Shown: positions 31,274 to 55,128 of the stretch, one piece after another
How positions within the stretch are numbered: position 1 is the stretch's first letter
Layout of the letters: the number at the start of each line of letters is the position of its first letter
Assembly (NCBI RefSeq): GCF_964204865.1
Contig: NC_135259.1
Location: 3,038,001-3,102,000, forward strand
DNA: 64,000 bases
From: Styela clava
Taxonomy: Eukaryota; Chordata; Ascidiacea; Stolidobranchia; Styelidae
Direction: 5' to 3'
Program-made: the position numbers and the translations under genes
Notes under the pieces: generated by a model
Databases searched by the model: none
What the model was told of the DNA's origin: nothing
What the model saw: only the letters and a program-made list of their open reading frames with translations

Positions 31274-32740
31274 ATGTCAGGTAAAATGGATTTCAGCAAA
31301 CAGGTTTCCGCTTTGAAAGTACGAACCTTGTTGACTGCAGTATGTTGCGTTTGTGTAATATCTATTGGTTACTCATACTTCTTTGTACACAACTTCCACT
31401 TTTTGAAACTGTCGCAGGATAACATTGATAACCAGTTGGAGAATATCGAGACTTTACTGGTTGCTTCGCGGACGCACACTGTGCCGTTACTCCTGTTTGA
31501 CATCGATATCTTGCCAAACATTTTTGTACCAAGATCCAAGACCTGGAAGGATACTCTGCATCAGTGCAAAATACTATGTAAGCATCACCCAGAAGAAAAA
31601 AATGTGATTACATTTGCAGCACTTGCCACCAAGTTTATAGCTTCGAAAGAAGATTACATAAACTCTCTAAAACACCTCGGATTTACGGTTCATTTGTCAG
31701 AAGTAGCTGACCCTAAACAGAAGGGACACTCAAATCCAGACATGATACCAGCTTATTTATGGATGGCACGAAAGAAACATGTTATACACATTGCATTTTT
31801 ACATGAACGTGGTGACGACATAAAATATATGTGGGTGGGACCAGTTACTGATCAAGACTGGATGGACACCGTAGCAGCTATAACACCAGCTATAGGCGAG
31901 GGATGGCATTCTATTGATGCGGTTGGGGCGAAATTTCCTCGATATGCACAAGGGTATGATCTTTCTCATAGATTTACAGGCTTGCCAATATATATAGACA
32001 ACCATAGAATTTCAGTACCTTATCATATCCGCGCTTTTCTAGACGAATATGCTAATTCACGTTTCATAGAGTGTGATCATGCAAAAGCTGAAAATTTCGT
32101 GGCAAAGTACGAAATCGAAATCCCCCAACAAGATAAACTTTTCCAAGAGGCCGCGAAAAAAATGCTAGTTGAAACAAAAAAGATTTTTGAAAAAATAAAA
32201 GTTCCGTTTTGGATTACTGGAGGAACTGTTTTGGGATGGTACCGTCAATGCAACATAATTTCTTACGATACAAATCTTGATATTGGCGTTTGGAAACACG
32301 ACTACAAAGAGGAAATTATTTCAGCAATGGAGGAAAATGGATTTTTCTTCAAAAGTAAATTCGGAACGCTGAAAGAAGGCTTAGAACTGGCGTTCTTGGA
32401 TAAATCAGACACGAAGATAAACATACATGTTTTCAGCAATGGTCACGATCACGTTACCCATCTTCGTACACGTAAAGACGGAAAAAGATTTCTTTTTAGT
32501 TATCCTCCATTTGAACTTTGCTGGTCGGAATTTGTCGGTATAAAAGTTAAAGTTTATTGCGATTCTTTGATGTATGTCTCACTTTACTTCGGACCTGGAT
32601 GGTATAAACCACAAAAAGATTGGCTCTGGTACGTCAACTCAAACCATGCCATTCCAATGGGTCATTGGACTCAACACGAATGGAAAAGCGTAATGCAAGT
32701 TCACCACCGGGAATCGAAGAAGGAAAATTTGAAGAAATAG
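31274..32740 (+). CDS. FKTN: fukutin-like ribitol-phosphate transferase, intronless
   Basis: Fukutin transfers ribitol-5-phosphate from CDP-ribitol to the core M3 glycan of alpha-dystroglycan in the Golgi. The single frame has 488 residues, against 461 in man, with ATG at 31274. A short cytosolic N terminus precedes a signal anchor at about residues 18-40, giving type II topology. The family blocks SRFIEC (about residue 261) and VPFWITGGTVLGWYRQCNII (about 310-330) follow, with TNLDIGV just after. Further on are a hydrophilic LicD-type C-terminal half and WCWSEF-like ELCWSEFVGIKVKV. Where vertebrate fukutin has DVD, this protein has NLD (Asn334, Asp336). The lysine-rich tail after MQV extends beyond the usual end. 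The vertebrate gene has many introns and this one has none in the coding region, so an ancient retrocopy or massive intron loss is possible. Confidence 0.9.
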   Translation: MSGKMDFSKQVSALKVRTLLTAVCCVCVISIGYSYFFVHNFHFLKLSQDNIDNQLENIETLLVASRTHTVPLLLFDIDILPNIFVPRSKTWKDTLHQCKILCKHHPEEKNVITFAALATKFIASKEDYINSLKHLGFTVHLSEVADPKQKGHSNPDMIPAYLWMARKKHVIHIAFLHERGDDIKYMWVGPVTDQDWMDTVAAITPAIGEGWHSIDAVGAKFPRYAQGYDLSHRFTGLPIYIDNHRISVPYHIRAFLDEYANSRFIECDHAKAENFVAKYEIEIPQQDKLFQEAAKKMLVETKKIFEKIKVPFWITGGTVLGWYRQCNIISYDTNLDIGVWKHDYKEEIISAMEENGFFFKSKFGTLKEGLELAFLDKSDTKINIHVFSNGHDHVTHLRTRKDGKRFLFSYPPFELCWSEFVGIKVKVYCDSLMYVSLYFGPGWYKPQKDWLWYVNSNHAIPMGHWTQHEWKSVMQVHHRESKKENLKK

Positions 32741-33494
32741 TTATTTGTTCAGAAAAGACTATTTCTGTAATTATGTGACGTATAAATTTATTTTTAGTAA
32801 GTGCTTGGAACTTATTATATACTCACATTGTCATTGTAAATTTTCTGTTATTCGAATCCTAATAATTTGGCCTCGATAATGGATGTATCTGTTAAAAAAA
32901 ATGAGTCAAAGCTGGGTATTGCGCATGATAGGATTTTACAATAATTATGTCAAACGATTCAAGTGTGTATAATGAGCATAAAATTGAGATCGCAATTAAA
33001 ATTTATCTAGTGACTTCCGGTTTGCAAAATCTGTATTAAAACTAACTAGTTAGTCATTTTTTAGTAAATATTAAATTACTGTGATATTTTCTGGTCAAGC
33101 TGAGATAATCGAGTCTCAAACATATTGCAAGACGCACCACATTGGTCGTTCTAATTATCCTGTATAGTTATTGGTTAGACACGTTTTTATGGTCATTTTA
33201 CTCCGTAGATGCACATTTACTCGTAACGGTTATGAAATTAACACAAATGTTGAGTAGTATTTTTGTATTATTGTTGTTGCGATTTATGAAGTTGATTAAC
33301 ATCTTTTTTTTCGTTATTTTATTGCTTTACAGATGAATGCATCGTTGTATTTAACATCAATTTAGCTAGAAACTAAGTAGTATAGTTGTCAGAAGGACAT
33401 GGGTATGACCGGTATGTTAGTCGTTGGGTATGACGGAACAACCGCCTATTAGAGTATCCTGACATACCACCTATATCGAAAAACTGGAAAATAT

Positions 33495-33674
33495 GGTTTC
33501 ATTACATTTGAACCCACGACAATTGCACCTAGCCACCTAATACTATTGCACCTATGGAAATTGTTTTGTTTTACGGATATTTGGACCCATATTAACCCTA
33601 ACCCATGGGTTTTAGCACCCGCATATAGATTGAACCCGCGGATATACACATGAGTTCAAAAATGTACGGTCACC
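33495..33674 (+). mobile_element. Mutator-like MITE, copy 2, with perfect 9-bp target duplication
   Basis: It starts GGTTTCATTACATTTGAACC and ends AATGTACGGTCACC. The flanks GGAAAATAT at 33486-33494 and 33675-33683 are identical. A 9-bp duplication is the mark of Mutator-like transposition. The interior is built of degenerate TTGAACCC and TTGCACC units. Confidence 0.8.
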
Positions 33675-34162
33675 GGAAAATATATGCAACCATGCGTATT
33701 TCAGTTCAGAACTTGACACTTTTTAAGAGGGAGGTTAGATGGTTTTCGCCTGGAACTAAATCAGGCAATCGATAATTCAAGTCGTGTGTTACAGCCAACA
33801 AATGCGTGTCAGACTGTAACAGGGAATTTGCTTCATTCGTCATGCGCCAATTGTGTCTTCAATTACACGTGTATCGATCGAAGTACATGTATATACTGTA
33901 TTCCCTCTATTTATACAGAGAGATTTCAGAATATAGTTCCGAATTTTAAATAGATTTTGGGAAAGAATATTCGACTAAGTCCATAGCGCTGCAGTACCAA
34001 TGCCTCTCAACATTATATTGTATTCGTTCACGTATAATGGAATATTTAAGGGAAATTTTCTAGCAAACTTCTTCTGTTCATAGCTAGTGGAAACAAAGTA
34101 GACGGATTTTAACGACACTTTATTTTGTAGTAAGTAATATATAATTACCGTATACATTTAAA

Positions 34163-35000
34163 ATGAGTAATCTCGTTCTAGTCTACTGGGACTTGAGAGG
34201 TCTTTGCGAGCCTGCAAGGATGATTTTAGAGTACGGTGGCATGGAATATGAAGATAGAAGGTTAAAAATAGCAGAGGCAAAATCATGGTTTGCTGAGAAG
34301 TTCTGTTTGGGAATGGATTTCCCAAACTTGCCGTACCTAATTGATGGAGACATAAAGCTTACCGAGAGTTGGGCAATTTACAGGTCTGTAAAAATTTTAC
34401 GTAAGATGTGAGTTTACCGAAAACTCATTTCTATTTATAATATGCAGAGTGGACAAATACGCCTGGTACAAAAAATGGTATTTTGCTATTGACTCAAAAT
34501 TTTCAAATCGTAACGCAATTCAAAATTTTGTCGAGTAATCATCATACTCCTTTTCCAGATATCTAGGGAAAAAGTTGAATCTATTTCCATCATCAGATGA
34601 AAATCAACGAAAGACAGATATGCTTCAAGGCGTCATTAATGACATCAGATGGGCATTTGCTAGGAGCATGTATAATGTTGACCTCTATGATAAAATTGAT
34701 GAGATCCGTAAGAATCAGACGGCAAAGATAGATATAATGGAAAAATATTTTACAGATCGGAAATTTCTGCTCGGAGATGATTTGAGTTTCCTTGATTTTG
34801 CTTTGTACGAAACTTTTGATCATCACCGTCTTTTCTTCACTGATATTTTTGACAAATCACCCGGTATTCAACGATTCATGGATGAATTCGAATCCATGAA
34901 ACCGATCTCCGAATATTTAAAGTCTAATAGATACAAAAAATTCCCGATAAATGGTCCCATGGCTACTTGGGGCGGAAAATCGGAAAATGACAGGAAATAA
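34163..35000 (+). CDS. Mu-type glutathione S-transferase, copy 1 (2 exons)
   Basis: Cytosolic GSTs conjugate glutathione to electrophiles. Exons 34163-34383 and 34559-35000 (donor AG|GTCTGT, acceptor TTCCAG) join within an Arg codon to 220 residues, the Mu-class length. The N-terminal thioredoxin-like half has the catalytic Tyr in VYWDLRG (Tyr8), EKFCLGMDFPNLPYLIDGD and the glutathione-binding LTESWAIYRYLG. The all-helical half contains RKFLLGDDLSFLDFALYETF and ends MATWGGKSENDRK. If the donor is ignored, the frame stops after 83 residues, so splicing is needed for a functional enzyme. A near-identical second gene lies at 50551-51732, with about ten amino-acid differences. The subclass is a judgement from overall similarity and length; Sigma or a tunicate-specific class cannot be excluded. 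Confidence 0.88.
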
Positions 35001-35427
35001 GTTGACTTATAGCAGCGAGTTATCTTTCAATAATGTTCATAATATACAAGAAGTCTGCTTTTATACTCCGATATTTGTAAGAATTACATACTTAAAAAGT
35101 TAAAAATGTCAAAAAAGAGGCTAGAATAAAAGTATTTGTAACAGTTTGTCCGTTAATAAAATTTACATTGAAATATGTTGATACCGATTAGTGATCTAAC
35201 TCTTACAGGGTCGATATAAAAAGCAACTTGTTATGTTTTCCATGTATTTATATACGAAAATTTGAAGGTCACATGGGATCACGAATAAAATGCGTATGTT
35301 TTCAGGTTATATTGGAACGATATTCCACAAATTAACTTTCGAAACGCTAAACGAGATTGAACTTCTAGGTTAGGTCACTGCTCTGAAGTACACGGGCGAC
35401 ATTTTAATCATCTGTGAGTGTAATGTA

Positions 35428-37554
35428 CAGGGATGGCCAATTCGAATATCGGAATTCACGTTCATAAGAATATCGGATATTTGTGTGACGTCACACATTT
35501 TCGACGCTGCTTTCAAGACCTTTCCGTTGAATGAAAACATTCTCGATAGAAACTTGCGCGTGATTGTTTTCATCACTCATCAGCGTAACGTGTTATTTAG
35601 GCCGTAAACGCCGTTACGATTGTATTATTTTCTCTAAAACGAAAATTTTTCACAAATTCGTTCCACGATAACGATAACATTTATTTTATTTTTGTACGCG
35701 CACGGAATTGTGAATCTGGTAAATACGTTCATTGGCGGCGAGTTTCTAAAGACAACGCAACTTTTTGATTGAAAAGCGGCAATTTAAAATACTGAAAATA
35801 AAATCGTAAACAATATAAGTTTTATTGAGGCCCGCGAAAATTAAAAAAACGCTCTTCTAGGCAGTGAAAATCGCAGAATTTCGTGTTTCGTCGCACACAT
35901 TATGTTTGGTCGGCGTTTAGGAACATATCGTCCCTAATTGGGGGGGGGGGGGGGGGGTCCTGATTGTCCATTACTTTAAATTGCCGTCGAATATTTTCGT
36001 GTTAACACGATACAAGGTAATATAATCAATCTAAAGTATATTCAATCAATTTTATTGTGATGAAATAAATTTTACCCTGAGATATTACTGCATATTTATG
36101 GATTTGTCGAACGGTTTTATCTAAAAATAATCAGAGTGGCAGCATTTCGATCGAGCGGAGTCACTGTTAACAAGTACATCTAAATATTTGCCCAATTCGC
36201 ATAATAAGGATCAAAACAATATTTAATCGGACAGTTTACCTCACGTTTTTATTTTTATAACCGCGGATTGCAATGGTATATAAGAGTGGTGAGGATTTTA
36301 TTTTGTCGACGCAACCGCAGGTCAAATTGAAGACAATTAAATTAATAAAACAAGACATTTTAAATACGCGTGTCGGTCACGAATTCAACACTTTGCACAA
36401 CAGAAAAATATATATTCGTTGTTATATTATTTGTTGTAAAAGTCGACTCTTTTAACAGGTGGCATAATCGCGGCGATGAATATGTATTTTTAATTCACTG
36501 CTAAACTTTATATGTATATTCATTGTATGAAATGAATTACCCTCTACAGTACACTTAACAGGGTTTTATATAATTATTTGAGATTTTTCTAACGGCGATA
36601 ACGAGTTGGCAAGATTGCAAAAATACGTATTAAAATAAAATACATCAGGCAGTTTATCTCGTAATTTTAGGTCACAGATCGCCGTGGACCGAACAGTAAT
36701 GTTTTTTTTTTTTGACGTAAGAAGAAGCAACCGCGAGTTACGTTGGACACATTAAATTAATATATAAAGATATTTTAGAATCTCGTAGATGTCATGGATT
36801 GAATACTTTACGTAAGATAATGATCATTATATGCTGAAAAGAAGGCTCTTTTAACGAGCGCGAAATCGCGGTGGGTGTTACAGGCGGCAATGGGAATTTC
36901 CAATTTCGAAAATCCTGGCTGCGCGCTGGCAGTGGTGGTCATCTATTCTCTATCTCTACTAATTTATTTCTAATTCCAAACACAACAATATGTTACACAT
37001 AATAACAATATGGTTCACATAAATTAATATACAAATATACTGGTAGGTAGTAGAATACCTCAGGCTTAAATATTAGAATTTATAAATGCATAATGGATTT
37101 TCGATTGTTGTTGCCTGTATTGCCAATAAATTTTTATTACTCTCAGAAAATATACACAATTATCTGAATACAAGTAGTATTTTTGTCAATAGACTTGACT
37201 ATTATCGTAATATCATGGTACCAATGATAGAAAGCGTCAGACAACTCCTTGGCTATCTTTTCATATGGTCATTTGTACAAAGTGAATAATTTTAATAAAC
37301 TGACGGTGTCACAAGTTGCTATTATTTTTTATTGATAGCTATGAACTATCAATTACTTTGTGTACATATACTGTTGGTTTGTGGCTTCATTCTGATATTT
37401 CTATTGAAGCTTATGTCCTAATTTACTGGGTTTTAATCAACTAAACCAAAAATGTGTTATTATCGATTTTAGAATGTATTCGGAATTCCAGATTCGAAAA
37501 CATTATTTTAGAATGTATTCGGAATAGTTTAGTATTCGGAAATGGCCAACCCTG
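35428..37554. mobile_element. 2.1 kb hAT element with perfect 8-bp target duplication, no transposase
   Basis: The left end is CAGGGATGGCCAATTCGAAT and the right end, inverted, is CAGGGTTGGCCATTTCCGAA. The flanking GTAATGTA at 35420-35427 and 37555-37562 is identical. Inside, two degenerate direct copies of about 0.43 kb can be seen (about 36000-36475 and 36475-36900), sharing CAACCGC, ATTAAATTAATA and CTCTTTTAAC landmarks. A run of 18 G lies at 35940-35957. I see no transposase, so the element is nonautonomous. Confidence 0.85.
35940..35957. repeat. poly(G) tract
   Basis: An uninterrupted run of 18 G inside the hAT element. A run this long is prone to slippage and assembly error. Confidence 0.9.
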
Positions 37555-38149
37555 GTAATGTAACATATGCCCTAACAAAACTTTGTAAATTTAATTCTTG
37601 TAAAAATAAGTAGCCGTGACCCCCCTGTATATGTATATATATATATATATAACTCTATTACGGTAGTTAAACGGACCTGCCATAATTGCAGTACTTAAGC
37701 GGACGTCGTTCCTGTGCCCGTATCATTGTTTTTAAATACGTGCTTGGAGAGGGCGAGAGCCGTTGACAACTACGGAGAAAAAGAGTCAACACAATCCTCT
37801 CGATAACAGATATAAAATTTTTGTCCGCTTAATTCGTCCACTTAATTCAGACCACCAAATGTTTTAGCCTATTTCGGCACTAAGCCGGACCCCTCTTATA
37901 TGTCGCCCTGGATGTCTACATAAATGATGTTGCTTTTATTTTAATACGCATTTTAAAGCGTATGACCTCGCTTTAATTTCCGATGGATTCGAACCATTTA
38001 GCAATACTTATCACAAAAAATAGCATTTCTTTTTTCAATGTCCAGTCTTTCGTGCAAGGGAGATGCACTGTGTTTGGTGTTGGAAATAATCTTCCATATC
38101 AAAAAATACTCGGAAATGCAACGTGATGGTAGACAAATCGAAACAAATT
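37555..38149. other. left border of the satellite region
   Basis: It contains an (AT)n run at about 37632-37651. Next come TTACGGTAGTTAAACGGACC and several AAGCGGAC/GTCCGCTTAA words up to about 37900. No gene is seen. A matching inverted sequence lies near 43404-43425. Confidence 0.45.
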
Positions 38150-41100
38150 GATCCAAACGTGTTATATATTTGAAACTGAGAAATACACAGAGCATATCAC
38201 AAATGTTCGCCTATTCCAACCCTATGGTGCAACATATAGATTAAACAGATGCTATGTTGTAAGTGTCAAGATATCAATACCAAGTCAAAATTATGGCATT
38301 CCAATAATATTGATAAACATTGCGCAAAATATACCGCAAAAACCCGCATATCTATATGGCTATAAGCGTATTAAACATATAATTGAAAAACAAAATTTTG
38401 AAATGCCATACATAGGGAGAAACAATACACAAAATATTTTTCAAACGTATCACCAATCTGATTGCTAAAGTGTGAAATATTATTTTAAAAAGGAAGAGTG
38501 GTATATAATAGTAAAATAAAATATGAAAGTGCTAATTATTTTGAGAAACAATAAAAGAAAATTATATATACGCAGAAGGTAACCGCAGAATGAAATTCGG
38601 AAATGCCAATAATATTGAAAAAATATCACACAAACTTTATCTCAAATGTCCACCTATCCGGCCTTTTAAGTTATACAAATAATTGTAAATGGGAATTCTG
38701 GTATGTCATTAATGAAGACAAACATCACACAAATTGGATTTCAAATGTTCATCTATCCGGTCACTCAAATATGGCACGTAATTGAAAAATGAACACCAGC
38801 CCTATTGAGAAAAAAACTCAAAATATATCTCAAATGTCAACTTATCCGACCACCTAAGGGTGGCATACAACAATTGAAAAAAAAGTCTTAAATCATATTG
38901 AGAAACATCACACAAAATATATCTCAAATGTCAACTTATCCGACCACCTAAGGGTGGCATACAACAATTGAAAAAAAAGTCTTAAATCATATTGAGAAAC
39001 ATCACACAAAATATATCTCAAATGTCCACCTATTCGGTCATTTAAGTGTGGCATACAACAATTAGAATAAAAACTCGGAAATCATATCGAGAAACATTAC
39101 ACAAAGTATATCTCAAACGTCCACCTATCCGGCCACCTAAGTGTGGCATTGAACATTAAAATGAAAATTCTGAAATCATATTGAGAAACATTACACGGAG
39201 TATATCTCAAATGTCCACCTAACCGGCCACCTAAGTGTGGCATACAAGAATTGAGATAAAAATTCTGAAATCATATTGAGAAACATTACAAGAAATATAT
39301 CTCAAATGTCCACCTATCCGGCCACCTAGGTGTGGCATACAAGATTTGAAATGAAAATTCTGAAATCTTATTGAGAAATATTATACAAAGTATATCTCAA
39401 ATGTCCACCTATCCGGCCACCTAAGTGTGGCATACAAGATTTGAAATAAAAATTCTGAAATTATATTGAGAAATATTACACAAAGTTTATCTCAAATGTC
39501 CACCTATCCGGCCACCTAAGTGTGGCATACAAGATTTGAAATGAAAATTCTGAAATCTTATTGAGAAATATTATACAAAGTATATCTCAAATGTCCACCT
39601 ATCCGGGCCACCTAAGTGTGGCATACAAGATTTGAAATGAAAATTCTGAAATTATATTGAGAAATATTACACAAAGTTTATCTCAAATGTCCACCTATCC
39701 GGCCACCTAAGTGTGGCATACAAGAATTGAAATGAAAATTCTGAAATCATATTGAGAAAAATTATACAAAGTATATCTCAAATGTCCACCTATCCGGCCA
39801 CCTAAGTGTGGCATACAAGAATTGAAATGAAAATTCTGAAATCATATTGAGAAATATTATACAAAGTATATCTCAAATGTCCACCTATCTGGCCACCTAA
39901 GTGTGGCATACAAGAATTGAAATGAAAACTCTGAAATCATATTGAGAAATATTACACAAAGTATATCTCAAATGTCCACCTATCTGGCCACCTGAGTGTG
40001 GCATACAAGAATTAAAATGAAAATTCTGAAATCATATTGAGAAATAATACACAAAGTATATCTCAAATGTCCACCTATCCGGCCACCTAAGTGTGGCATA
40101 CAAGAATTAAAATGAAAATTCTGGAATCATATTGAGAAACATTACACAAAGTATATCTCAAATGTCCACCTATCCGGCCACCTAAGTGTGGCATACAAGA
40201 ATTGAGATGAAAATTCTGGAATCATATTGAGAAACATTACACAAAGTATATCTCAAATGTCCACCTATCCGACCATCTAAGTGTGGCTGGCATACAAGAT
40301 TTGAAATGAAAATTCTGAAATTATATTGAGAAATATTACACAAAGTATATCTCAAATGTCCACCTATCCGGCCACCTAAGTGTGGCATAAAACAATTACA
40401 ATGAAAGCTCTGAAATCATATTGAGAAACATTACACAAAGTATATCTCAAATTTCCACCTATCCGACCATCTAAGTGTGGCATATAAGATTTGAAATGAA
40501 AATTCTGAAATTATATTGAGAAATATTACACAAAGTTTATCTCAAATGTCCACCTATCCGACCATCTAAGTGTGGCATACAAGATTTGAAATGAAAATTC
40601 TGAAATTATATTGAGAAATATTACACAAAGTTTATCTCAAATGTCCACCTATCCGACCACCTAAGTGGGGCATACAAAAATTGAAATGAAAATTCTGAAA
40701 TAATACAAAATATATATCTCAAATGTCCGCATATCCGACCACCTAAGTATGGCATACAACTATTGAAACAAAATTCTGGAATCGTATTGAGAAATATTAC
40801 ACAAAATATATCTCACACACTTATTAAGTGTGTGAAATTTAACTGAAATACGAAATTTCGAATACTAATCATATTTTGATGTTGTGGAAAATTGCTAAAA
40901 TTTATCTCTATTGTTCACCTATCCGATAACTTGAGAGTGACAAATATTATAAAACAAAATTTTGAAACCATATTGAAAAACAAAACAGAAAATAAATCGC
41001 AAATCGTCATCTTCTCAGCTACGTAAGTGTGTCATGTAAATGCAAAATGATATTTTGGAATGGCAATAATATTGAGAAGCATTCAAAAAAAATTTCAACC

Positions 41101-41310
41101 ATCCGACCATTTCAGAAGGTATGTAATTAAAACACGAAATTATGAAAAAAATATCGAGAAACATTACACACAACATATCTCAAATGTTCAATAAAGTGAC
41201 GTTTTCAGTGGGGCCTATAAATGCAAAACGAAATTTTGCCATGTCAACTAAAATGAGAAACATTACACCAATTATAACTCAAATGTCTGCCTATCAGGGC
41301 GCCTAAGTAT
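38150..41310. repeat. satellite array with 95-bp period
   Basis: The unit contains ATATCTCAAATGTCCACC, TATCCGGCCACCTAAGTG, TGGCATACAAGAATTGAAAT and TCTGAAATCATATTGAGAAA in that order. Successive CTCAAATGTCC starts at 39301, 39396, 39491 and 39586 are each 95 bases apart. The core from about 38830 to 40830 is well conserved. Units at both edges decay gradually, the usual picture of unequal crossing-over. There are roughly 30 units in all. Open frames read through the array are a by-product of its periodicity. Confidence 0.95.
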
Positions 41311-41626
41311 AGCAGTGATTATACAGTCAACTATACAAGCGATCAAAATGAAATTATTGAACCTCTATATCAATTTAGAATCTTTGCACAATTTATTTAA
41401 AATTTTTGCACCAACTCGGAATACAAAAACATGATTGTTATTTTGAATTTATAATTAAATAGTGAAAATGTATGCTAAGTATGTATACGAATGTGGATAT
41501 GCCCACTGGATTAAGTTGTTGAGTAGAGACATAATTATGCTCACTGCCGGTTCATCTTTATGAATTATACAGAGATGTCTTAAAGCTTTACAATAAACTT
41601 CTCGCAAGATATACAAAGCCGTGCAA

Positions 41627-42721
41627 TTATTTTTCTTTTCGTCGTTTCTTTTCTGGTTCGCGTTTGTTTAGAAGCTTTTTTTTTTGAATTGATTCACAGC
41701 CTTTTTCTTTTCCATATATATGGTTTTCTTTGAAATCACTTACATTGCTTATTGAAAGTGATTCTGAAGATGGTGCGGTATAGTCTGTTGACTTATCTGA
41801 AACTTTGGTCAAAAATACATGCATAAGCCACAAAACATCATCACAGTGTTTTAGTCCAATTCAAAATTACGCTACTCTTGATTGATCGAACAAACGAAAT
41901 GTTTGAAACTGGGAATTGCATTATTACTCAAATAAACCAGAGTTTCTAAACGGTGCACTACAATTATTCGTAGATAGCTGCGCTATTTGTGATGGGCTAC
42001 AAGTGATATTATGATTTGATTTATTATCATTCATTGGTATCAATTTAAGATACCGTATTTAATAAAAAACTAGCATAGCAAACTCATTTAGTCACCTCCT
42101 GGCACAGCTTTCTCTGAATCACTACCCGCATTTCCGTCTGCCAAGTTCTGAAACGTAGGCCATCTCGTTGGAGAGTCACCTACATGTGAACAAAAAATAC
42201 AGCCCAGTAAATAACTAGATGAAGATGGTAAAATAACACAGGGATATGTGCCAAATCACAAAACAAAATTGCTAGCAATGCAATTCTTCAAAACTGTTTT
42301 CCGAAGATAAAATATTCTAATCTAATATGAAGCGGTGTATTAGATATTTTTATTTACACCAAACTATACAAACATCTACTGAGTGGCGTCAACCACTCGC
42401 TTCTCGTATATCCTTCTGTTTCGAGAAAAAATTGAATTCATTGAATTTTCACAATCTTTGTTTGTATTTTTATCTGGATTTAGAAATCCTTCTGAATTAC
42501 ACACTCTTACAAACGCAAACCCAGTCGTGGCACTATTTTGATGGTCAGATTAGGACTACGACCAGTAAAAGCATAACAGTATCAGTAGTCTATATTTTGA
42601 TAATCTGGATTACGTGAAAAATCTCAACACCAAAAATATAGTAACCCTAATATTAAAAATCGTTATGACTAATCACCTTATCCGATGAGTGATGATTTCC
42701 AGCAGCATTCCTCGTGACCAT
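41627..42721 (-). CDS. possible small multi-exon gene, incomplete model
   Basis: Three exon-like pieces lie on the minus strand. The first, 42721-42677, reads MVTRNAAGNHHSSDK and ends at a GTGATT donor. The second, 42179-42088, follows a CATGTAG acceptor, reads DSPTRWPTFQNLADGNAG and on to VPGGD and a stop, with AATAAA on the minus strand at 42025-42020. The third lies after TTTCAG near 41806, runs STDYTAPSSESLSISN to a GTAAGTG donor, and if unspliced ends in the lysine-rich KKRRKEK. The first ends in phase 0 but the second starts with two bases of a codon, so at least one internal exon is missing. I recognise no family. This may be a real short gene or chance. Confidence 0.25.
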
Positions 42722-43745
42722 GAAAACCTTGTTTCAAGTTATTATGACTCGACTCCAACTCACTGGGTAACTAATAACACCTGACACAAAAGACTTGCAT
42801 CTCTTCTCCAAACACAACTGTTCTATTTTATCTAAATTTCTGCAATCACGCACTCATGAAGATCCCAATCCCCTCACGGCGTCCAGGTTACTTGCGAACA
42901 AAACGGCAAACGTGGTAAAGTTCTCGGCGAACCCGACAGTTTTACTATGCGTCACAAAGCCTCTTTAGTACGGAGTTGTGAATTGAGGTCCTTTTCAGTT
43001 TATTGAGCTTATATTGCAAAAAATCAGAATGGACGATCTTCATGTTCTGCCTGGTTATTGTATCAAAATTATCAAACCTATTCTCCAAAAATCGTAAAAA
43101 CATATACCGAAAAATTAAAAGATTTTTGCATAAACAAAATGTCCACTTTATGTACGAAAATTAAACCCGTTGATTATAAACCAGCAGCACCATTGTCCCC
43201 TTAAAGTTGGCGAAAATGTGCAGATATTTGAAAAATATTAAAGGAACATATTATTTTTGATACTGTTTTATGAGAGAAAAAGAGATTTCAGCAAAATATC
43301 GCAAAACTTTTTAATTACGGAACGTGGAATAATTAAGCGGACAGGAAAATGTCTACCCAATTTTTCCGTCTACATAACTGTCGCTTTTTTAGCGCGGTAT
43401 GTCTACTTAACTACCGTATTAGATATATATATATATGTATATATATCTATATATATATATATAGTTCCACAATTAAATTGATATAATCTAAGTTATAGTA
43501 AATGACAATACACTGAAAACTTTGATGCATGTATACAATGGCACTTAAACTACTTCGATAGCTAAATAATATTGACCAGTTCTTGAATTTGGGCAAGTAT
43601 TACGTGATCAGCCTTTTTTCTTGCGACGTAAACATTCTCATAAAAGCTTGCTGACGGAGAATTCTTTGGCTACGACCTCCAAATTTTCCATGGTAGGGAC
43701 TTTTGTTGAAGATGCCTAAGAATCCCAATACCGCTAGGCGCTACT
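42722..43745. other. no gene seen; right border of the satellite region
   Basis: It contains TACTTAACTACCGTA at about 43410-43425, the inverse of the sequence at 37664, followed by (AT)n at about 43427-43462. Nothing else is recognisable. Confidence 0.4.
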
Positions 43746-43857
43746 AACAAGCATTTTGTCAATGCGCTTGCACAAACAAAGTTATTCACAATATTCGTTT
43801 TCTTGTATATGATTACCATACTTTCTGCCATGAGAAAAAAGTTGATCAGGCCATTTA

Positions 43858-43989
43858 TCAAAACATGCCATTCCAATGGGTCATTGGGCTCAACGCGAAT
43901 GGAAAAACGTGATGCAAGTTCAACATCGAGAATCGACAAAGAAAAAATTAAAACAACAGTTATTTGTTCAGAAAACACTATGTCTATGA
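43858..43989 (+). pseudogene. fukutin 3' fragment, copy 2
   Basis: The frame reads SKHAIPMGHWAQREWKNVMQ and corresponds to the last codons of the gene at 31274-32740, starting at its codon 456. The true stop position is mutated, so the frame runs on to a TGA at 43987. Upstream sequence is unrelated to fukutin. The fragment lacks the anchor, the catalytic domain and a promoter. Confidence 0.85.
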
Positions 43990-44142
43990 TCATGTGACAT
44001 GTGAATTATCTCTAGTATGGTTCTTAGAACTTAATTTATATATATACCTTGAAACATGGTTTGGTATTCATTAACTTGGCCTCGATAATGCCTATTTCAA
44101 AAAATAAAGTCAAACCTGGGTATTGCAAATGATAGGATATTA

Positions 44143-44329
44143 GGTTCCCGTACATTTGAACCCACGACAATTGCACCTGCATACTATTGCACCTATGGAA
44201 AAAAATTTTGTTTTGCGGATATTTGAACCCATACTAACCTAACCCATGGGTTTTAGCACCCGCATATAGATTGAACCCGCGGATATACACATGGGTTCAA
44301 ATGTACGTGGGTTCAAATGTACGGTCACC
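44143..44329 (+). mobile_element. Mutator-like MITE, copy 3, with perfect 9-bp target duplication
   Basis: It starts GGTTCCCGTACATTTGAACC and ends TGTACGGTCACC. It is flanked by AGGATATTA at 44134-44142 and 44330-44338. The equivalent site in copy 3 of the duplication (about 52452-52462) is empty and has a single AGGATATTA, so this insertion came after the second duplication. Confidence 0.85.
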
Positions 44330-44376
44330 AGGATATTATAATAATTTTGCCAAACGATACAAGTATGTGTAATGAG

Positions 44377-45038
44377 TAGGGTTGGGAATTTCAGGGAAAA
44401 ACCTTAACCGGGTAAAATTAACCGATTAACCGTAGCGTGACGTTTCACATAATGATTTTAGCTTGTTACGTCACAAGGGTTACAAAGCTATTTCGCGTGA
44501 TCTTATCCCGGTATCGCTTAAAATTATCCACGAATCGAGATAGTTTTGTGATCGCTCTGCTGCAAGAGATATGCAGCGTGGGTAGGACATATGGAAGTAT
44601 TTTAGTAAAACCCGATTCCGTTATTAAATGTCATTTATCTGCCAAATTTTCAGTGTTTGATGTCCAAATTCTACTTTGAGATATATAGAGAAAAACAGCA
44701 TCAACTACGCACTTGTTGGTTGACATTGAATATACGATTTTAAAATAAAACCGTGAACAATATATTTCGACCTAAAACTGATTCATATTAAATATTGTCA
44801 AATTTTCATAATCAGCAATGTTGGTACTTCAATTATTTTTCACATTTATTGGGTCCTCACCAATACAGTTAGCAATATTCTTTTGAATTAAACGCCACGG
44901 AAAAAGGATTTGAGATAACGTAATCATTTTTTAAAGAATTGTACATTATAAAGATGATTTAAACCTGAGATGTCAGTTAACGGTTAAAATAAATCGTAAC
45001 CGTTAACCATCTAAATCGGTTAACCATTCCCAGCTCTA
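44377..45038 (+). mobile_element. 0.66 kb hAT MITE with perfect 8-bp target duplication, copy A
   Basis: The ends are TAGGGTTGGGAA and TTCCCAGCTCTA, inverted. GTAATGAG flanks the element at 44369-44376 and 45039-45046. Inside, ACCGGTTAACC-type words recur near both ends. It is present at the same site in 52501-53170 and absent at 32969-32976 in copy 1. Confidence 0.88.
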
Positions 45039-45785
45039 GTAATGAGCATATCTAGTGGATTCCGGCTTGCAAAATCTGTATTAAAACGAATTAGTCATTG
45101 AACTTCTCTACATTTAGTCATTGTTTAGTAAATATCAAATTACTGTGATCTTTTCTGGTTAAGCTGAGATAATCGAATCAAAAACATATTGCAAGACGCA
45201 TGTTCGTCGTGCTGATTATCCTGTATAGTTAGTTGTTAGGCACTTTTTATGGCCATTTCACTCCGTAGATGCACATTTTTTCGTAACGGTTATAAAATTA
45301 ACACAAATGTTGAGAAATATTTCTGTATTATTGTTGTTGCGGTTTATGGAGTTAACATATTTTTTTTCGTTATTTTATTGCTTTACAGATAAATGCAAAT
45401 GTATTTAATATCAATTTAGCTAGGAACTAAGTAGTATAGTTGTCAGAAGGACATGGGTATGACCGGTTTGTTAGTCGTTGGGTATGAGGGAACAACCGCC
45501 TAGCAGTGATTCCCAAAGTGGGCGATATCGCCCCCAGGTGGGCGAAAACGATACAGAGGGGGGCGAAAAAGTCGAAGGGGGCGATGTGGGGGCGATTTCG
45601 CAAAACCTGGTTTTGTTCGGCGCATCGTGCACTTGATTACTTTATTCTGCGTGCTTTCGTAGGTATGAATCATGTGGGAAATATCATACGCGAGAGGACT
45701 CGTCTCCGCCGTAAGGCACGGCGTATCCCAGTGGTCGGCAAATTACGGCCGGAATAAAATAATCTGGCCAGGGACGATTCACTGA

Positions 45786-46287
45786 TTGGATCTTTCCCCG
45801 ACCTTTGACCCCGGAAAATTCTTTCTATATTTTACCATTTTAAAATTTTCGGTGCTTATTTTAGGAGTGGTTTCGCGAGTTGTTGCCTGTAAAATGGGGT
45901 ATTTCAAACTATCATTCTAATTCATACCATTCAACAATCTGTTTTTTAAAATTACCGGTAAATAATTTTAGCCTAGTTTATCACAGCTATTTCTACTGTA
46001 ATTTTTGATTACTGCAATTAAACTGAAACTCCTAGGCAGACAAAGTGATCATTAAATTATTTGATTTTGATTTAATTTTCTGAAACACAACTAAAAACAA
46101 ACGAATATAGTTCAAAAAAACCGAGAAATTGAGGTAATGTTTACGACCACGCATGAAAATCTGTCTGAGCGAGAAAAGCGTCTGAGCGGATGCGAAATGG
46201 GGCATTCTTACGTTCATTTTTGCATCTTGCTGATTGGCCAATGTCACGAAGTAAACAAGGAAGTCTATGCCCGGGGAAACATCCAAT
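45786..46287 (-). mobile_element. 0.5 kb MITE, copy 2 (reverse orientation)
   Basis: The reverse complement of 11796-12291 with moderate divergence. The ends are TTGGATCTTTCCCCG and CGGGGAAACATCCAA. It is the innermost layer of the nest. Confidence 0.7.
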
Positions 46288-46678
46288 ATACAGACAAAAC
46301 GGCGTTTTGACGATGAATTGATTTTATTTATAATCTACGCTCAAGGAGTAAATTACATTTTTTACGTAACAGAATTTATCGTGAGACACGTTTAGACTAA
46401 ATTATATCATATCCTAACAATTTAGTGAACAGCTAGCTACTCGTTTAACGAGCCTACAATTCAATTATAATTAGACAAGTGGCAACACGCAGAAAAGTTG
46501 AGGCTGAGTGAAGGGGTTTAATATCGCAGTAAATATTCAAATATATTGCAATGCAATAAGGAAATAAAATTCATATTCTATTCGAGAGATTCATCACTGC
46601 TTAATTTTTGTAATAATGTAACTTCTTGAGGAGAATCTTTATCAAAATTTCACAAACCATGCGAAAATATTCACTAAG

Positions 46679-46876
46679 ATGTTTGGAAGTACATATTTGT
46701 GCAAAAAACTATTTTCGAAAATGAACATTACAAAGAGCAGGCAAAGAACTAGGATTAGTGATGCCCATTTAGAAATTGTTCCTTGGCGTCGTAATGCTAT
46801 AAAGCGTGATGCAGCAACAAGACAGTGTCACATCAAATGTCATTGTAATCATTTTTTAATAAGACGACTGAGTTGA
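46679..46876 (+). pseudogene. hAT transposase C-terminal (dimerisation) fragment
   Basis: It encodes FGSTYLCKKLFSKMNITKSR, then QRTRISDAHLE, ending in a stop. This is the hAT-C dimerisation segment of Zbed/SCAND3-like transposases (the family's YLCEQ.FS.M pattern). Nothing of the BED finger or catalytic core remains nearby. Confidence 0.8.
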
Positions 46877-47877
46877 ATTGTCGCAGTTTTAGCGCGCTGT
46901 TCCGTTTTTAACCTTTAAAAAATATATGCGACCCGCAAAAGACTATCAACCCTTAATTTTGTCCCGCGAGCGACATAAAATTTGCCGACCCCCGGCCGTA
47001 GCATAGTCGGTCACGGCTTTTTCCACATCCGAGTCCATGAATCTAAAGCAAATGGCTAATTAATTATAGGGATTGGTGATCGAACTGGAGGACGTGGTAG
47101 GATGAGAAATCGAGGATGAATTTTAACGAAGATCGTTATATATCATGTATTTTGGTGCAGGTCATCAGGCTATAGGGATGAATGAGATGTACGAAAATCA
47201 TTATTAGAAGTTTGGGAAAATTAACTTTGTTTTCATTATTTTAATGTGAAATGGGGTGAATTTAGGGAGTTAAATGTCATAAGGCAACTACACGGCGGTT
47301 TTTGAGGAGGTGGAACCCTGGATTCTTTCATTTCCGACCTCTTATATGGTAAAAAGGGGTTTACAGCCGTGTTACTATTGCTATCAAAACAACGAAATCG
47401 CCTTTTCATCAGTAAACGGGGTGATTTTAGATTGTGTCTGACAAAAATGTCACCAAATAATAAACGAGAATATTGGTCAGAGACCGAAGACTTATCGATC
47501 GAAAGTTAGGGGATCCCCCAAAACAGCGCTCTTACTCCATAGTGACACCTTTTGTCCCATCACTAATTAAATAATAACTCTCTAATTATACGACATAATC
47601 CATCTAAAATCAATGGGCTTCTGCTCCGACATATGATGATTGCACATGCAAAATCTGGAGCAGCTTCAATCTCGCTTTCGTGCTATATCGCGTGCATCCA
47701 ACAGACAGGCAGACAAATACCTATGAACATGCTGAACGATTAAAATCGATAAGTAATAAAACCCGCTGAAGAACACCAAACTCATCCATCTCATTAAAAA
47801 AGACTATAAAATATGATTTGTCTTCCTATTTGGTCTGTAATATATTCGTTTCTGACTTTAATTTTTTTTGTAGTGCT

Positions 47878-47896
47878 GGGGGGGGGGGGGGGGGGG
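47878..47896. repeat. poly(G) tract
   Basis: An uninterrupted run of 19 G just inside the right end of the outer transposon. Confidence 0.9.
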
Positions 47897-47966
47897 CGAT
47901 GAAGTTTGGGAACCACTGTATTAGAGTATCCTGACATACCACCTATATCGAAAAACTGGAAAATAT

Positions 47967-48139
47967 GGTTTCATTACATTTGAACCCACGACAATTGCAC
48001 CATACATGCTATTGCACCTATGGAAATTTTTTTTGTTTTACGGATATTTGAACCCATACTAACCCTTCCCCATGGGTTTTAGCACCCGCATATAGATTGA
48101 ACCCGCGGATATACACATAAGTTCAAATGTACGATCACC
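47967..48139 (+). mobile_element. Mutator-like MITE, copy 4 (orthologue of copy 2 in the duplication)
   Basis: It has the same insertion site and the same GGAAAATAT duplication as 33495-33674, here at 47958-47966 and 48140-48148. It was therefore present before the first duplication. Confidence 0.85.
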
Positions 48140-48400
48140 GGAAAATATATGTGTTCAGACTGGTGCGGCTATAAACATGGCTATATCAAGTCAAACTACG
48201 GTACCGGTTTTGATAGATGGATCCAGTTAGAGACAAAACCATTTTTCAGTTTGTGTTTCATGTATCTATGTAGAATTTTGGCTGAAAACTTCCATTAAAA
48301 ATGGTCATGGTTTTGCCACATGTATTTTTATGCGAATTTGAGGAAATCTATTCACTTGGATACCCAAGCAGCTCATATGATACAAAATCTTAATGACAAT

Positions 48401-50070
48401 TAGGGGTGGGCAAAATCGAATATTTTTTTTTGAATCGAATAGTTCGAATATTTTTAACGAATACCGAATAGTCGAATAACGAATATTTTTTTTATACACA
48501 ACAGGAGGTCTACAACGTCGGTCGATACTCCTTTGGAAGTTAATAAAGACATTGAAAAATCGGCTACAAAGCGTTTTTTTACTGGTTAATTTCGTCATAA
48601 TCGCTGATTGTTTTTGTCACCGTGACCGTTTTTGCGGCGATATATAATCTATAATACCGCCCTTTCTGTTATTTGCAAGTATTAATTCTTTCGGGTCGGC
48701 GGACATCGACGTTTATATTTCGGGTTTACCCGTGCGTTCACGTCGGCAACAGCTGTTAAAATCATTAAGGATTGATGTAAAAACCCAAATTAATATTATT
48801 CTCATTATTATCATTTGCCTTGGCTTTCATATTACTTATCAACGTTTGTAAATTTACCGTCACAATATTAAGCGAACGGTAATATTATTATCGATACCGG
48901 GATGTAGATATTTATCAGGACAATACCGTAATTAACTTTGCTATGCTTTTCTATGGTGTCTATGTTACTTTACAGATAAACCTCGCAAAACGAGGCGATT
49001 GCGTCAATCCCGAATGTTGATTTAAAATAGTGACTAAATAATTCGACAATAAAGGCATTTCTGCGTGGCCATATGACGAGATGACGTTAATAAACAGCGC
49101 TTCTTGAATAATAATTTACATATGCGACCTAATGCTGAAAAAAATTGCGCTTTTTTACTTTTGTGCCTAGTAGATGGCCAGGCGCTAATTATAACTCTTC
49201 CAAGTTCCGACGTTTTCTTTCAACAAACCGCGCGATCATTATAGCTACGGTAATATCGTTACCGAGTAATTCACAATTTTATTTACGGAATTTGCGAATT
49301 CCCCTCTACTTCTCTTGACAATTTTGATAATGTCACGCCCTATTTATTAGTGCAAAAAGGCTCAAAATATAACGAATGTAATCATTTCCGACGATAAAAC
49401 AATTCGTAAACGAGACAGTGCGCGTTGTTACATCGAAATTCACGATTGATTTTACGCCATACTCCTGTTCACGATTTCTACACTCCACCCGCCATGCATG
49501 CCCGAGTGAAATGTTTACACTTTCGAAACATTATTTGGTCAAGAATTAAAGGGATCACTAAAGAATTATTTGAAAGTACATTAAAAGATCTATGTCCTGC
49601 CATTTCTTTTCTGGTCATAGATTGTTCGTGTTATACTATGTATGGTTTCACGCAAAAGTTAATTCAACTTTTAATTTTCGTTAAACAAATTTATGTTTGG
49701 TTCATGCATGAAACGGCTAATCACGTGCCGCCAATCATACGGAGTTTAAAATCTGGAATAGTTATTTTAAATACCACATCTGATTTAACGTTTCTAAATT
49801 TAGGGAACGGTGTCGGTACCTCTTTGTGCAACATATGGAATTGAAATGAACGATCGAAACGCAAAGACGATTTTTCAAATTTGTCGCTTTTGTCTGTTAG
49901 CGAGCGTTGTAGGTGAATTCTCGCGCAATTCACGATCGGTTCAGAGACGTTCTGTGTCCAAGTGAAGCGACGCAGATCACGTGGTACCCGATATACGAAT
50001 AGTAAAATGCCATTCGAATAATTTAATATCCGATTCGCTATTCGTTATTCGAATATTTTGCCCAGCCCTA
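48401..50070. mobile_element. 1.67 kb hAT element with perfect 8-bp target duplication
   Basis: The left end is TAGGGGTGGGCAAAATCGAA and the right end, inverted, is TAGGGCTGGGCAAAATATTC. ATGACAAT flanks it at 48393-48400 and 50071-50078. Subterminal regions are rich in CGAATA words on both sides. The open frame at 49425-49844 has no recognisable transposase motif, so the element is probably nonautonomous. It sits inside about 0.33 kb of sequence (48150-48400 plus 50079-50163) that is also absent from copy 1. Confidence 0.88.
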
Positions 50071-50550
50071 ATGACAATATTCTTACGCAATAGCAGATGT
50101 TGATAACCGTGGTTAATATTTGGCCCACACCCATACATCCTCGAACATGATCAGAGCAGTCAACCATGCGTATTTCAGTTCAGAACTTAACCCTTTTTAA
50201 GAGGAAGGTTAGATGGTTTTCGCCTGGAACTAAACCAGGCGATAGATGATTCAAGTCGTGTGTTACAGCCAACAAATGCGTGTCAGACAGTAACAGGAAA
50301 TTTGCTTCGTTCGTCATGCGCCAAATGTGTCTTCAATTACACGTGTATCGATCGAAGTACATGTATATAGTGTATTCCCTCTATTTATACAGTGAGATTT
50401 CAGAATATTGTTCCGAATTTTAAATAGATTTTGGGAAAGAATATTCGACTAATCCACAGCGCTGCAGTACCAATGCCTCTCAACATTAGACGGATTTTAA
50501 CGGCACTTTATTTTGTAGAAAGTAAAATATAACTACCGTATACATTTAAA

Positions 50551-51732
50551 ATGAGTAATCCCGCTCTAGTCTACTGGGACTTGAGAGGTATTTGCGAGCC
50601 TGCAAGGATGATTTTGGAGTACGGTGGCATGGAATATGAAGATAGAAGGTTAAAAATAGCAGAGGCAAAATCATGGTTTGCTGAGAAGTTCTGTTTGGGA
50701 ATGGATTTCCCAAACTTGCCGTACCTAATTGATGGAGACATAAAGCTTACCGAGAGTTGGGCAATTTACAGGTCTGTAAAAATTTTACGTAAGATGTGAG
50801 TTTACCGAAAACTCATTTCTATTTATAATATGCAGAGTAGACAAATACGCATGGTACAGAAAACAAGAGAGCTACGCCCAAATATATGGACACGTCTGTT
50901 CGCAGTACAGTACGGTTTACCGTACCGTCAGATCACAGTCTACAAATATATTCACACCAAGCGAAGCAGTACAGTAGGACACAAAATGGCATCCGATGTC
51001 CGCAGAACGTTTAATGACGTCATAGCAAACAAAAACAAATCTCACAGAGCTAACAGAAAGATTTAAAATGAATAAAAGTAATAGCCTTCTGGGAAAATTT
51101 TTTATCTTCAACCACTGAAAATTTCAAAGCAATTGGTCCAGTATTCGAAGAGAAAAGCGATTTTTTTAAAAATGATGGAGACAAATAATAATAACAATAA
51201 AAAAATTTGAAACGATCGTTATGTCCACTACGTGTCCAAAAATTTTGTCGAGTAATCATCATACTCCTTTTCCAGATATCTAGGGAAAAAGTTGAATCTA
51301 TTTCCATCATCAGATGAAAATCAACGCCAGGCAGATATGCTTCAAGGCGTCATTAATGACATCAAATCGGCATTTGCTAGAAGCATGTATAATGTTGACC
51401 TCTATGATAAAATTGATGAGATCCGTAAGAATCAGACGGCAAAGATAGATATGATGGAAAAATATTTTACAGATCGGAAATTTCTGCTCGGAGATGATTT
51501 GAGTTTCCTTGATTTTGCTTTGTACGAAACTTTTGATCATCACCGTCTTTTCTTCACTGATATTTTTGACAAATCACCCGGTATTCAACGATTCATGGAT
51601 GAATTCGAATCCATGAAACCGATCTCCGAATATTTAAAGTCTGATAGATACAAAAAATTCCCGATATATGGTCCCATGGCTACTTGGGGCGGAAAATCGG
51701 AAAATGACAGGAAACAAGTAGCGAACTTATAG
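50551..51732 (+). CDS. Mu-type glutathione S-transferase, copy 2 (2 exons)
   Basis: Exons 50551-50771 and 51276-51732 use the same splice sites as copy 1 and join to 225 residues. The active-site Tyr8 (VYWDLRG), FPNLPYLIDGD and LTESWAIYRYLG are intact. Differences from copy 1 include Leu4Pro, Val5Ala, Leu14Ile, Arg-Trp to Lys-Ser in helix 4, and Asn to Asp and Asn to Tyr near the end. The copy-1 stop TAA reads CAA here, adding the tail QVANL. The intron is about 0.33 kb longer because of an insertion at about 50860-51240. No inactivating change is visible, so both copies look expressible. The upstream 0.4 kb (from about 50160) also matches copy 1, although about 60 bases just before the ATG are missing. 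Confidence 0.87.
50860..51240. mobile_element. insertion in the GST copy 2 intron, SINE- or MITE-like
   Basis: This is absent from the copy 1 intron. It has GGACACGT near its left end and ACGTGTCC near its right end, an imperfect inverted pair. It also holds a GTAC-rich palindromic patch at about 50904-50926 and an AATAATAATAACAATAAAA stretch at about 51186. The class is uncertain. Confidence 0.45.
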
Positions 51733-52175
51733 CAGCTAGTTATCTTCCAATAATGTGCATAATATACAAGAAGTCTGCTCTAATACTCCGATATTTGTAA
51801 GAATTACATACTTAAAATGTTAAAAATGTCAATAAAGAGGCTAGAATAAAAGTATTTGTAACATTTTTTCCGTTAATAAAATTTACATTAAAATATATGT
51901 TGATACCGATTAGTGATCTAACTTTTACAGGGTCGATATAAAAAGCAACTTGCTGTGTTGTCGATATTTTCCATGTATATATATACGAAAATTTGAAGGT
52001 CGCATGGGATCACGAATAAAATGCGTATATGTTTAGGTTATATTGGAACTTTATTCCACAAATAACGAGCATTTTGTCAATGCGCTTGCACAAACAAGGT
52101 TATTCACAATATTCGGTTTCTTGTATATGATTACCATACTTTCTGCCATGAGAAAAAAGTTGATCAGGCCATTTA

Positions 52176-52307
52176 TCAAAACATGCCATTCCAATGGGTC
52201 ATTGGGATCAACGCGAATGGAAAAACGTGATGCAAGTTCAACATCGAGAATCGACAAAGAAAAAATTAAAACAACAGTTATTTGTTCAGAAAACACTATG
52301 TCTATGA
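52176..52307 (+). pseudogene. fukutin 3' fragment, copy 3
   Basis: A near-identical repeat of 43858-43989, reading SKHAIPMGHWDQREWKNVMQ and running to the same displaced TGA. The shared changes relative to the gene at 31274 show that it derives from copy 2, not directly from fukutin. Confidence 0.85.
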
Positions 52308-52500
52308 TCATGTGACATGTGAATTATCTCTAGTATGGTTTTTAGAACTTAATGTATATATATATACCTTGAAACATGGTTTGGTATTCATTAACTTGGC
52401 CTCGATAATGCCTATTTCAAAAAATAGAGTCAAACCTGGGTATTGCACATGATAGGATATTATAATAATTTTGCCAAACGATACAAGTATGTGTAATGAG

Positions 52501-53170
52501 AAGAGTTGGGAATTTCAGGGAAAACACCTTAACCGTTAACCGGGTAAAATTAACCGGTTAACCGTAGCGTGACGTTTCACATAATGATTTTAGCTTGTTA
52601 CGTCACAAGGGTTACAAAGCTATTTCGCGTGACCTTATCCCGGAATCGCTCAAAATTATCCACGAATCGAGATAATTTTGTGATCGCTCTGCTGCAAGAG
52701 ATATGCAGCGTGGGTGGGACATATGGAAGTATTTTCGTAAAACCCGATTCCGTTATTAAATGTCATTTATCTGCCAAATTTTCAGTGTTTGATGTCCAAA
52801 TTCTACTTTGAGATATATAGAGAAAAACAGCATCAACTACGCACTTGTTGGTTGACATTGAATATACGATTTTAAAATAAAACCTTGAACAATATATTTC
52901 GACCTAAAACTGATTCATATTGAATATTGTCAAATTTTCATAATCAGCAATGTTGGTACTTCAATCATTTTTCACATTTATTGGGTCCTCACCAATACAG
53001 TTAGCAATATTCTTTTGAATTAAACGCCACGGAAAAAGGATTTGAGATAACGTAATCATTTTTTAAAGAATTGTACATTATAAAGATGATTTAAACCTGA
53101 GATGTCAGTTAACGGTTAAAATAAATCGTAACTGTTACCCATCTAAATCGGTTAACCATTCCCAGCTCTA
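52501..53170 (+). mobile_element. 0.66 kb hAT MITE, copy B
   Basis: The same element, insertion site and GTAATGAG duplication (52493-52500 and 53171-53178) as 44377-45038. The left end has decayed slightly to AAGAGTTGGGAATTTC. Confidence 0.85.
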
Positions 53171-53507
53171 GTAATGAGCATATCTAGTGGATTCCGGCTT
53201 GCAAAATATGTATTAAAACGAATTAGTCATTGAACTTCTCTACATTTAGTCATTGTTTGGTAAATATTAAATTACTGTGATCTTTTCTGCTCAAGCTGAG
53301 ATAATCGAATCTAAAACATTTTGCAAGACGCATATTTGTCGTGCTGATTATCCTGTATAGTTAGTTGTTAGGCACTTTTTATGGCCATTTCACTCTGTAG
53401 ATGCTCATTTTTTCGTGACGGTTATTAAACTTGTATTCTTGTTTTGAAGGTCGGTGTAAAGTTTTTTTGCGCTTCCATATGGAGCCCGCTGCTGAATTAT
53501 TTCTAAA

Positions 53508-53629
53508 ATCCATGGAATAGGGTTAGTATGGGTTCAAATATTCGTTGGTGCAAATTTCCATAGGTGCAATAGTATGCAGGTGCAAATGTCGTGGGTTTAA
53601 ATGTATCTGGGTTCAAATGTAATGGAACC
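53508..53629 (-). mobile_element. Mutator-like MITE, copy 5, truncated
   Basis: The reverse complement of the family. It ends on the plus strand with GGTTCAAATGTAATGGAACC and contains GTGCAATAGTATGCAGGTGC. Its other end stops near TCCATGGAATAGGGTTAG. Confidence 0.7.
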
Positions 53630-53840
53630 GAACCGTCCAGCATGGGTTAAAGCACGGATAGCCCTGTTTTGTAAAACGTTGATGCGGTGTAACAAAGTGT
53701 TGTTAACTGATCTTCAAGTTATGATACCATATGAGACTGAAACAAGGCGTAGTACACCATGCGTAGGGTAGACAATGAAGTATAACGCCTACGGCAATAA
53801 AGCATTTCTATCGCCTTGGCTAATTTAACAGCAGTGTTGG

Positions 53841-54861: not shown

Positions 54862-55128
54862 AGTGATGGTTATTTGAATGTCCCATTGCAGTTTGTTATC
54901 AATGTGGATGCCAATATATTTGAATGAGCTAACGTTATCAAGAATAGTTCGTTCAATCTCAATTTTCAAAGATGTATGTGACCTGGTTTTGATTGGGGCC
55001 AATAGCATAGTTTTTGATTTTTCTACATTTAAAGTTAATTTGTTTATTTTCAACCAATTAGCTACTTTTTTTTATTTCGGTGTTCACTCTGGACTGAAGT
55101 ACATCAGGAGACTTATCACTATCTAGAA

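Follow-up and report, generated by a model that had tools for sequence, protein, structure and literature searches.

Copies of a fukutin 3' end and a mu-class-like GST gene in Styela clava that differ unevenly along their length

Clusters of mu-class GST genes are of a known kind, and the locus described here resembles them in carrying local mu-class-like GST copies, with matches at 11 places on 75 kb. It differs from them in that two-exon copies on the plus strand lie beside an intronless array on the minus strand, and in that two of the copies carry a fukutin tail. For the duplicated block itself, the closest described counterparts are the duplicated blocks of the Drosophila melanogaster subgroup (Osada and Innan 2008, PMC2588116), where divergence is higher at the edge of a block than in its homogenised middle. 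The Styela block shares with these its local position, a homogenised part with an intact gene, and strongly raised divergence at an edge, whereas here just one edge is clearly raised, there is a third, truncated copy, and the comparison is made within one genome. The length of gene conversion tracts is treated in PMC3924818.

The window, that is the whole stretch of DNA analysed, is 64,000 nucleotides long and corresponds to positions 3038001-3102000 of a 22.5-Mb contig (NC_135259.1, here C13); the genome searched comprises 376.6 Mb in 379 contigs. A preliminary description of this DNA had proposed that a block consisting of the fukutin 3' end and a GST gene is present in three copies, and had called for a self-alignment of the window. 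The self-comparison together with alignment recovered all three copies, and the main matching pieces have E-values of 2e-53 or lower, which excludes chance. Their arrangement is as follows.

32639..35332, plus strand: copy 1 (A) of the duplicated block, with fukutin 3' end, flank, GST and flank (self-comparison, alignment)
43746..43857, no strand assigned: 112-base lead preceding copy 2 (self-comparison, alignment, own-genome search)
43858..52063, plus strand: copy 2 (B) of the block, with insertions (six separated pieces; self-comparison, alignment)
52060..52067, no strand assigned: junction of copies 2 and 3, with TAAC common to the end of copy 1 and the start of the lead of copy 2
52064..52175, no strand assigned: lead preceding copy 3 (self-comparison, own-genome search)
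52176..53429, plus strand: copy 3 (C), with fukutin tail, flank and a shared hAT-like insertion at 52501-53170, without GST (two pieces)

Between copies 1 and 2, positions 38608-41314 hold a satellite-like array of 95-base units, about 21 of them at 38803-40815. Elsewhere in the window, 14047-17516 contains another local direct repeat (14388-15613 against 16269-17516 at 77%) with shorter repeats around it, and 55973-56302 on the minus strand gives a weak reverse-transcriptase match under the Pfam cut-off.

The gene from which the tails derive and the dead tail of copy 2 are these.

31274..32740, plus strand: fukutin gene, a single open reading frame of 488 codons plus stop counted from the first ATG, the start codon having been picked by reading the sequence
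43858..43956, plus strand: dead fukutin tail of copy 2, 33 codons, with CAG at the stop position

Scanned from 31292, the frame ending at 32740 matches FKTN_N (1.6e-18) and then LicD (9.5e-5). Both matches pass the Pfam cut-off, LicD narrowly (23.0 against 22.6 bits), and FKTN_N followed by a LicD-type domain is the order by which we recognise fukutin; the names fukutin and GST given earlier are thus borne out, by Pfam domains for both and by matches to solved structures for GST. By tblastn within the window, the tails in copies 2 and 3 are 33 codons long and correspond to residues 450-482 of the 482 scanned, at 73% identity, with no frameshift and with the stop codon changed. The last codons of fukutin do recur, then, as had been reported, although they number 33 rather than 34. 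Upstream of copy 2, tblastn in the window detected no longer decayed fukutin, only residues 450-482, and in 263 kb around the locus there were no fukutin matches besides the gene and the two tails. The own-genome DNA search with 32638-33900, in which 40 of 2463 candidates were scored, did not list the tail of copy 2 itself and is for that reason uninformative on tails elsewhere. Having lost the stop codon and lacking upstream fukutin coding sequence detectable by tblastn, both tails are non-functional, as first proposed.

Each of copies 1 and 2 contains a GST gene of two exons.

34163..34383, plus strand: GST copy A, exon 1
34559..35000, plus strand: GST copy A, exon 2 (220 aa in total)
50551..50771, plus strand: GST copy B, exon 1
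51276..51732, plus strand: GST copy B, exon 2 (225 aa in total)

Both two-exon frames are intact and have identical splice signals. The frame of B is five codons longer (225 against 220 aa) as a result of a different stop; in three related nearby GST genes, the stop lies where it does in copy 1 in two and a codon later in one. GST A matches Pfam GST_N (1.3e-12) and GST_C_3 (1.9e-12), and GST B gives similar matches. In a PDB comparison run on copy A, the top hit (1.2e-46) bears the name glutathione transferase, the next is class-mu, and many more among the 60 listed are mu. With N- and C-terminal domains and these closest solved relatives, the proteins are classed on sequence as mu-class-like. 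The pair shows dN 0.019 and dS 0.024 (10 and 3 changes, P 0.72), changes too few to judge selection. To judge from their frames, both remaining GSTs look functional.

The way in which the copies are joined establishes the relationship between copies 2 and 3. The 112-base leads at 43746-43857 and 52064-52175 differ at 3 positions, and no counterpart was found beside fukutin. An own-genome search with 43500-43900, which passes over very common words, returned three matches (three of three candidates scored), and the lead was covered only by copies 2 and 3. The last base of homology between copy 2 and copy 1 (52063) directly abuts the first base of the lead of copy 3 (52064), so that the end of one unit is joined straight to the start of the next in the same orientation, the arrangement of a tandem duplication. 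Because the lead and a hAT-like insertion with the same 8-base target duplication are shared by copies 2 and 3 and absent from copy 1, and because the junction is direct, copy 3 repeats copy 2 in tandem, in truncated form. In these respects, the lead absent beside fukutin, the start of copy 3 at the end of the GST flank of copy 2, and the tandem origin of copy 3, the preliminary description holds. Neither self-comparison nor tblastn revealed a GST remnant downstream of copy 3, and when 35333-38500 was compared with 41400-58000, in case the original block had been longer, just three matches appeared, all short and weak.

The insertions in the copies allow the events to be ordered.

33495..33674, no strand assigned: MITE-like repeat in copy 1, with the 9-base target duplication GGAAAATAT; many genome copies
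44143..44329, no strand assigned: MITE-like insertion in copy 2 only, with the 9-base target duplication AGGATATTA; the site in copy 3 is uninterrupted
44377..45038, no strand assigned: hAT-like insertion of 662 bases common to copies 2 and 3 and absent from copy 1, with the 8-base target duplication GTAATGAG and ends matching at 11 of 16 bases
45502..47916, no strand assigned: stretch in copy 2 absent from copy 1, with hAT-like ends by eye and no clean target duplication found
48401..50070, no strand assigned: hAT-like insertion in copy 2, with the 8-base target duplication ATGACAAT and ends matching at 15 of 16 bases, within a longer 2-kb stretch absent from copy 1

The MITE-like insertion marked by GGAAAATAT is also present in copy 2, near 47967-48133, where the target duplication was recognised by eye. 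As the hAT-like insertion occurs in copies 2 and 3 but is missing from copy 1, the MITE-like insertion at AGGATATTA occurs in copy 2 and not in copy 3, and that at GGAAAATAT in copies 1 and 2, the order is the split of copies 1 and 2, the hAT-like insertion, the split of copies 2 and 3, and then the MITE-like insertion. Insertions 44377-45038 and 48401-50070 combine an 8-base target duplication with matching terminal inverted repeats, and on these features we label them hAT-like; an open frame inside 48401-50070 had no Pfam match. A clean target duplication was not found at 45502-47916, in the rest of 48152-50160, in the intron stretch 50864-51238 or at 34016-34098 in copy 1. The sequences at 33495-33674, 44143-44329 and 53503-53605 belong to one MITE-like family, with 9-base target duplications at the first two places; its genome copies are many, as judged from a search in which 40 of 2463 candidates were scored.

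The divergence between copies 1 and 2 is distributed very unevenly. With gapped columns left out of all counts, the fukutin tail differs at 16 of 102 coding sites and at 62 of 221 non-coding sites (28.1%). The following stretch 33004-33237 differs at 25/230 sites (10.9%) and 33238-33384 at 11/141 (7.8%), and the non-coding GST flank with the intron at 57/1147 (5.0%). In Fisher tests from which GST coding bases were excluded, the non-coding tail (P 6.6e-22) and 33004-33237 (P 0.0012) depart from the GST flank, and 33238-33384 is not distinct from it (P 0.16). Change-point scans, which include coding bases, those of GST among them, placed the best change at 32970 (support 32951-33304), equalled in none of 200 shuffles, and further ones at 33371 (1/500 shuffles) and at 32704 inside the tail (3/500 shuffles), the last of which probably reflects coding constraint. 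Copies 1 and 2 are not of a single age along their length. A non-coding divergence of 28% and of 5% within one block means that the GST half was homogenised later or acquired later, and a single copying step is insufficient unless the whole GST flank 33385-35332 is constrained. Part of the block is thus less diverged with coding constraint not the cause, as expected of gene conversion, although a template switch would give the same sign.

Comparisons with copy 3 show a similar step. Copies 1 and 3 differ at 72/325 sites (22.2%) over 32639-32976, coding part included, and at 28/230 (12.2%) over 33004-33237. Within 33004-33237, copies 1 and 2 agree against 3 at seven sites and copies 1 and 3 against 2 at four, too few to decide. 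Copies 2 and 3 are closer to each other, with 37 differences in 1356 sites (2.7%), than the GST flanks of copies 1 and 2 are (P 0.004), and copy 3 is therefore the youngest. The last part of the alignment of copies 2 and 3 is more diverged, at 13/257 sites (P 0.018 against the rest; the change point was equalled in 20 of 500 shuffles).

The reading that we prefer, to which we give a probability of about one half, is an old duplication of the tail and GST, subsequent gene conversion that homogenised the GST halves, and a tandem repeat followed by loss that produced copy 3. An old local duplication would have placed the fukutin 3' end and the adjoining mu-class GST some 11 kb further downstream, forming copy 2, in which the dead tail would then have drifted to about 28% non-coding divergence. 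Recent or repeated conversion between copies 1 and 2 may have overwritten the GST half, bringing it to about 5% and fading toward the fukutin edge. A hAT-like element would next have inserted into copy 2, after which the unit 43746-52063 would have been duplicated in tandem to give copy 3, and copy 3 would have lost everything past 53429, the GST included. Read from divergence alone, within one genome sequence, conversion is favoured by the fading of divergence across the GST half and by its agreement with the edge pattern described in PMC2588116. Simple copying of the tail and GST jointly, followed by partial repetition of copy 2 with no exchange afterwards, would fit the copy order and the junction; the 28% and 5% non-coding divergence in one copied block (P 6.6e-22, GST coding bases excluded) make it highly improbable. 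Of the two-step duplication originally proposed, the second step, copy 3 from copy 2, stands, but a simple first step with nothing after it does not, since copies 1 and 2 differ in the two halves at 28.1% and 5.0% of non-coding sites.

A template switch is a more serious competitor, though we consider it rather unlikely. What is now copy 3 would then have been an old fukutin tail, orphaned with its lead and serving as a homologous landing pad. A replication fork broken there would have switched to the homologous sequence next to fukutin, copied GST A as far as 35332 and jumped back to the lead via TAAC microhomology; in this way one event would have joined an old left part to a young right part in copy 2. 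The four bases TAAC are indeed shared at the junction. Copy 3 ends at the position homologous to 33237, near the drop in divergence between copies 1 and 2, which is natural under a template switch and a coincidence under gene conversion. The switch would also explain why copies 1 and 2 (10.9%) and copies 1 and 3 (12.2%) are about equally distant before that point, and why 33238-33384 does not stand out clearly against the GST flank (P 0.16). The stepped divergence of copies 1 and 3 (22.2% to 12.2%) also means that conversion between copies 1 and 2 alone fails to explain that part. Under the switch, the GST flanks (5.0%) and the pair of copies 2 and 3 (2.7%) should be of the same age, yet these differ (P 0.004), a discrepancy softened by the 13/257 in the last 257 bases of copies 2 and 3. 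Heterozygous haplotypes can differ by as much as the 2.7% between copies 2 and 3, and an assembly that placed two haplotypes in tandem would explain the closeness of these copies. False haplotype copies normally share long flanks, whereas here, short repeat matches apart, the sequences outside copies 2 and 3 do not match one another, nor do the flanks of copy 1 match those of the other copies, and each copy misses a different part (copy 2 the fukutin body, copy 3 the GST). Several insertions with perfect target duplications also speak against such an error, though allelic insertions fit too. From the sequence we regard an assembly artefact as unlikely, clearly more so than a template switch.

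The right end of the homology between copies 1 and 2 (35332/52063) lies inside a repeat that continues in copy 1, and is therefore a breakpoint and not the element's own end. An own-genome search with 34099-35332 (40 of 125 candidates scored) listed 43 matches. Thirty fall outside this GST cluster, and every one of these aligns with the last 78 bases of the query, which suggested a transposon boundary at 35332. Ten of the 30, retrieved with flanking sequence, show that the repeat extends beyond 35332 in copy 1, the longest reaching about 35427. The boundary was rejected; the edge was just the end of the query, and copy 2 is cut inside the repeat. The interspersed repeat spans 35256-35427 and has many genome copies; roughly its first 77 bases are all that remains in copy 2 ahead of the junction with copy 3.

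The preliminary description counted two GST genes in 20 kb. Two intact frames are present in the window, but they are only part of the 11 GST-matching places on 75 kb found within the 263 kb scanned around the locus (the window included), namely A, B and nine more that lie 12-45 kb beyond the window. Three of the nine are on the plus strand with two exon-like matches each, at 3114640, 3121030 and 3126815 of C13. The other six lie on the minus strand without an intron at C13:3133213-3147323, in steps of 2.67-2.72 kb; an in-frame stop interrupts one of them, and another is divided between two frames. GST A and B are 95.5% alike and form a group with support 1.000, and the other nine are 50-72% alike to them. 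Among the matches listed in the own-genome DNA search (40 of 125 candidates scored; blind to distant relatives), no GST lay outside this stretch. The minus-strand array (C13:3133158-3147385) has an 8.1-kb higher-order repeat, at 98.1% over 6.9 kb. Short plus-strand GST-like matches (residues 145-209) occur at five places between the array genes, for example at C13:3134844-3135031 and 3137526-3137713, and are perhaps a second diverged GST or a fragment. As the 11 GST places are clustered here, the duplication of A and B is probably one step in a local GST expansion.

As a local gene duplication the event is of an ordinary kind, with a GST half far more alike between copies than the fukutin half, and it puts GST A and B at the margin of a local cluster of mu-class-like GSTs. 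Thanks to the dead gene end carried in the duplication, how old the duplication is can be told apart from later homogenisation: the GST flank (5.0%) or GST dS (0.024) would make the duplication seem several times younger than the fukutin tail does.
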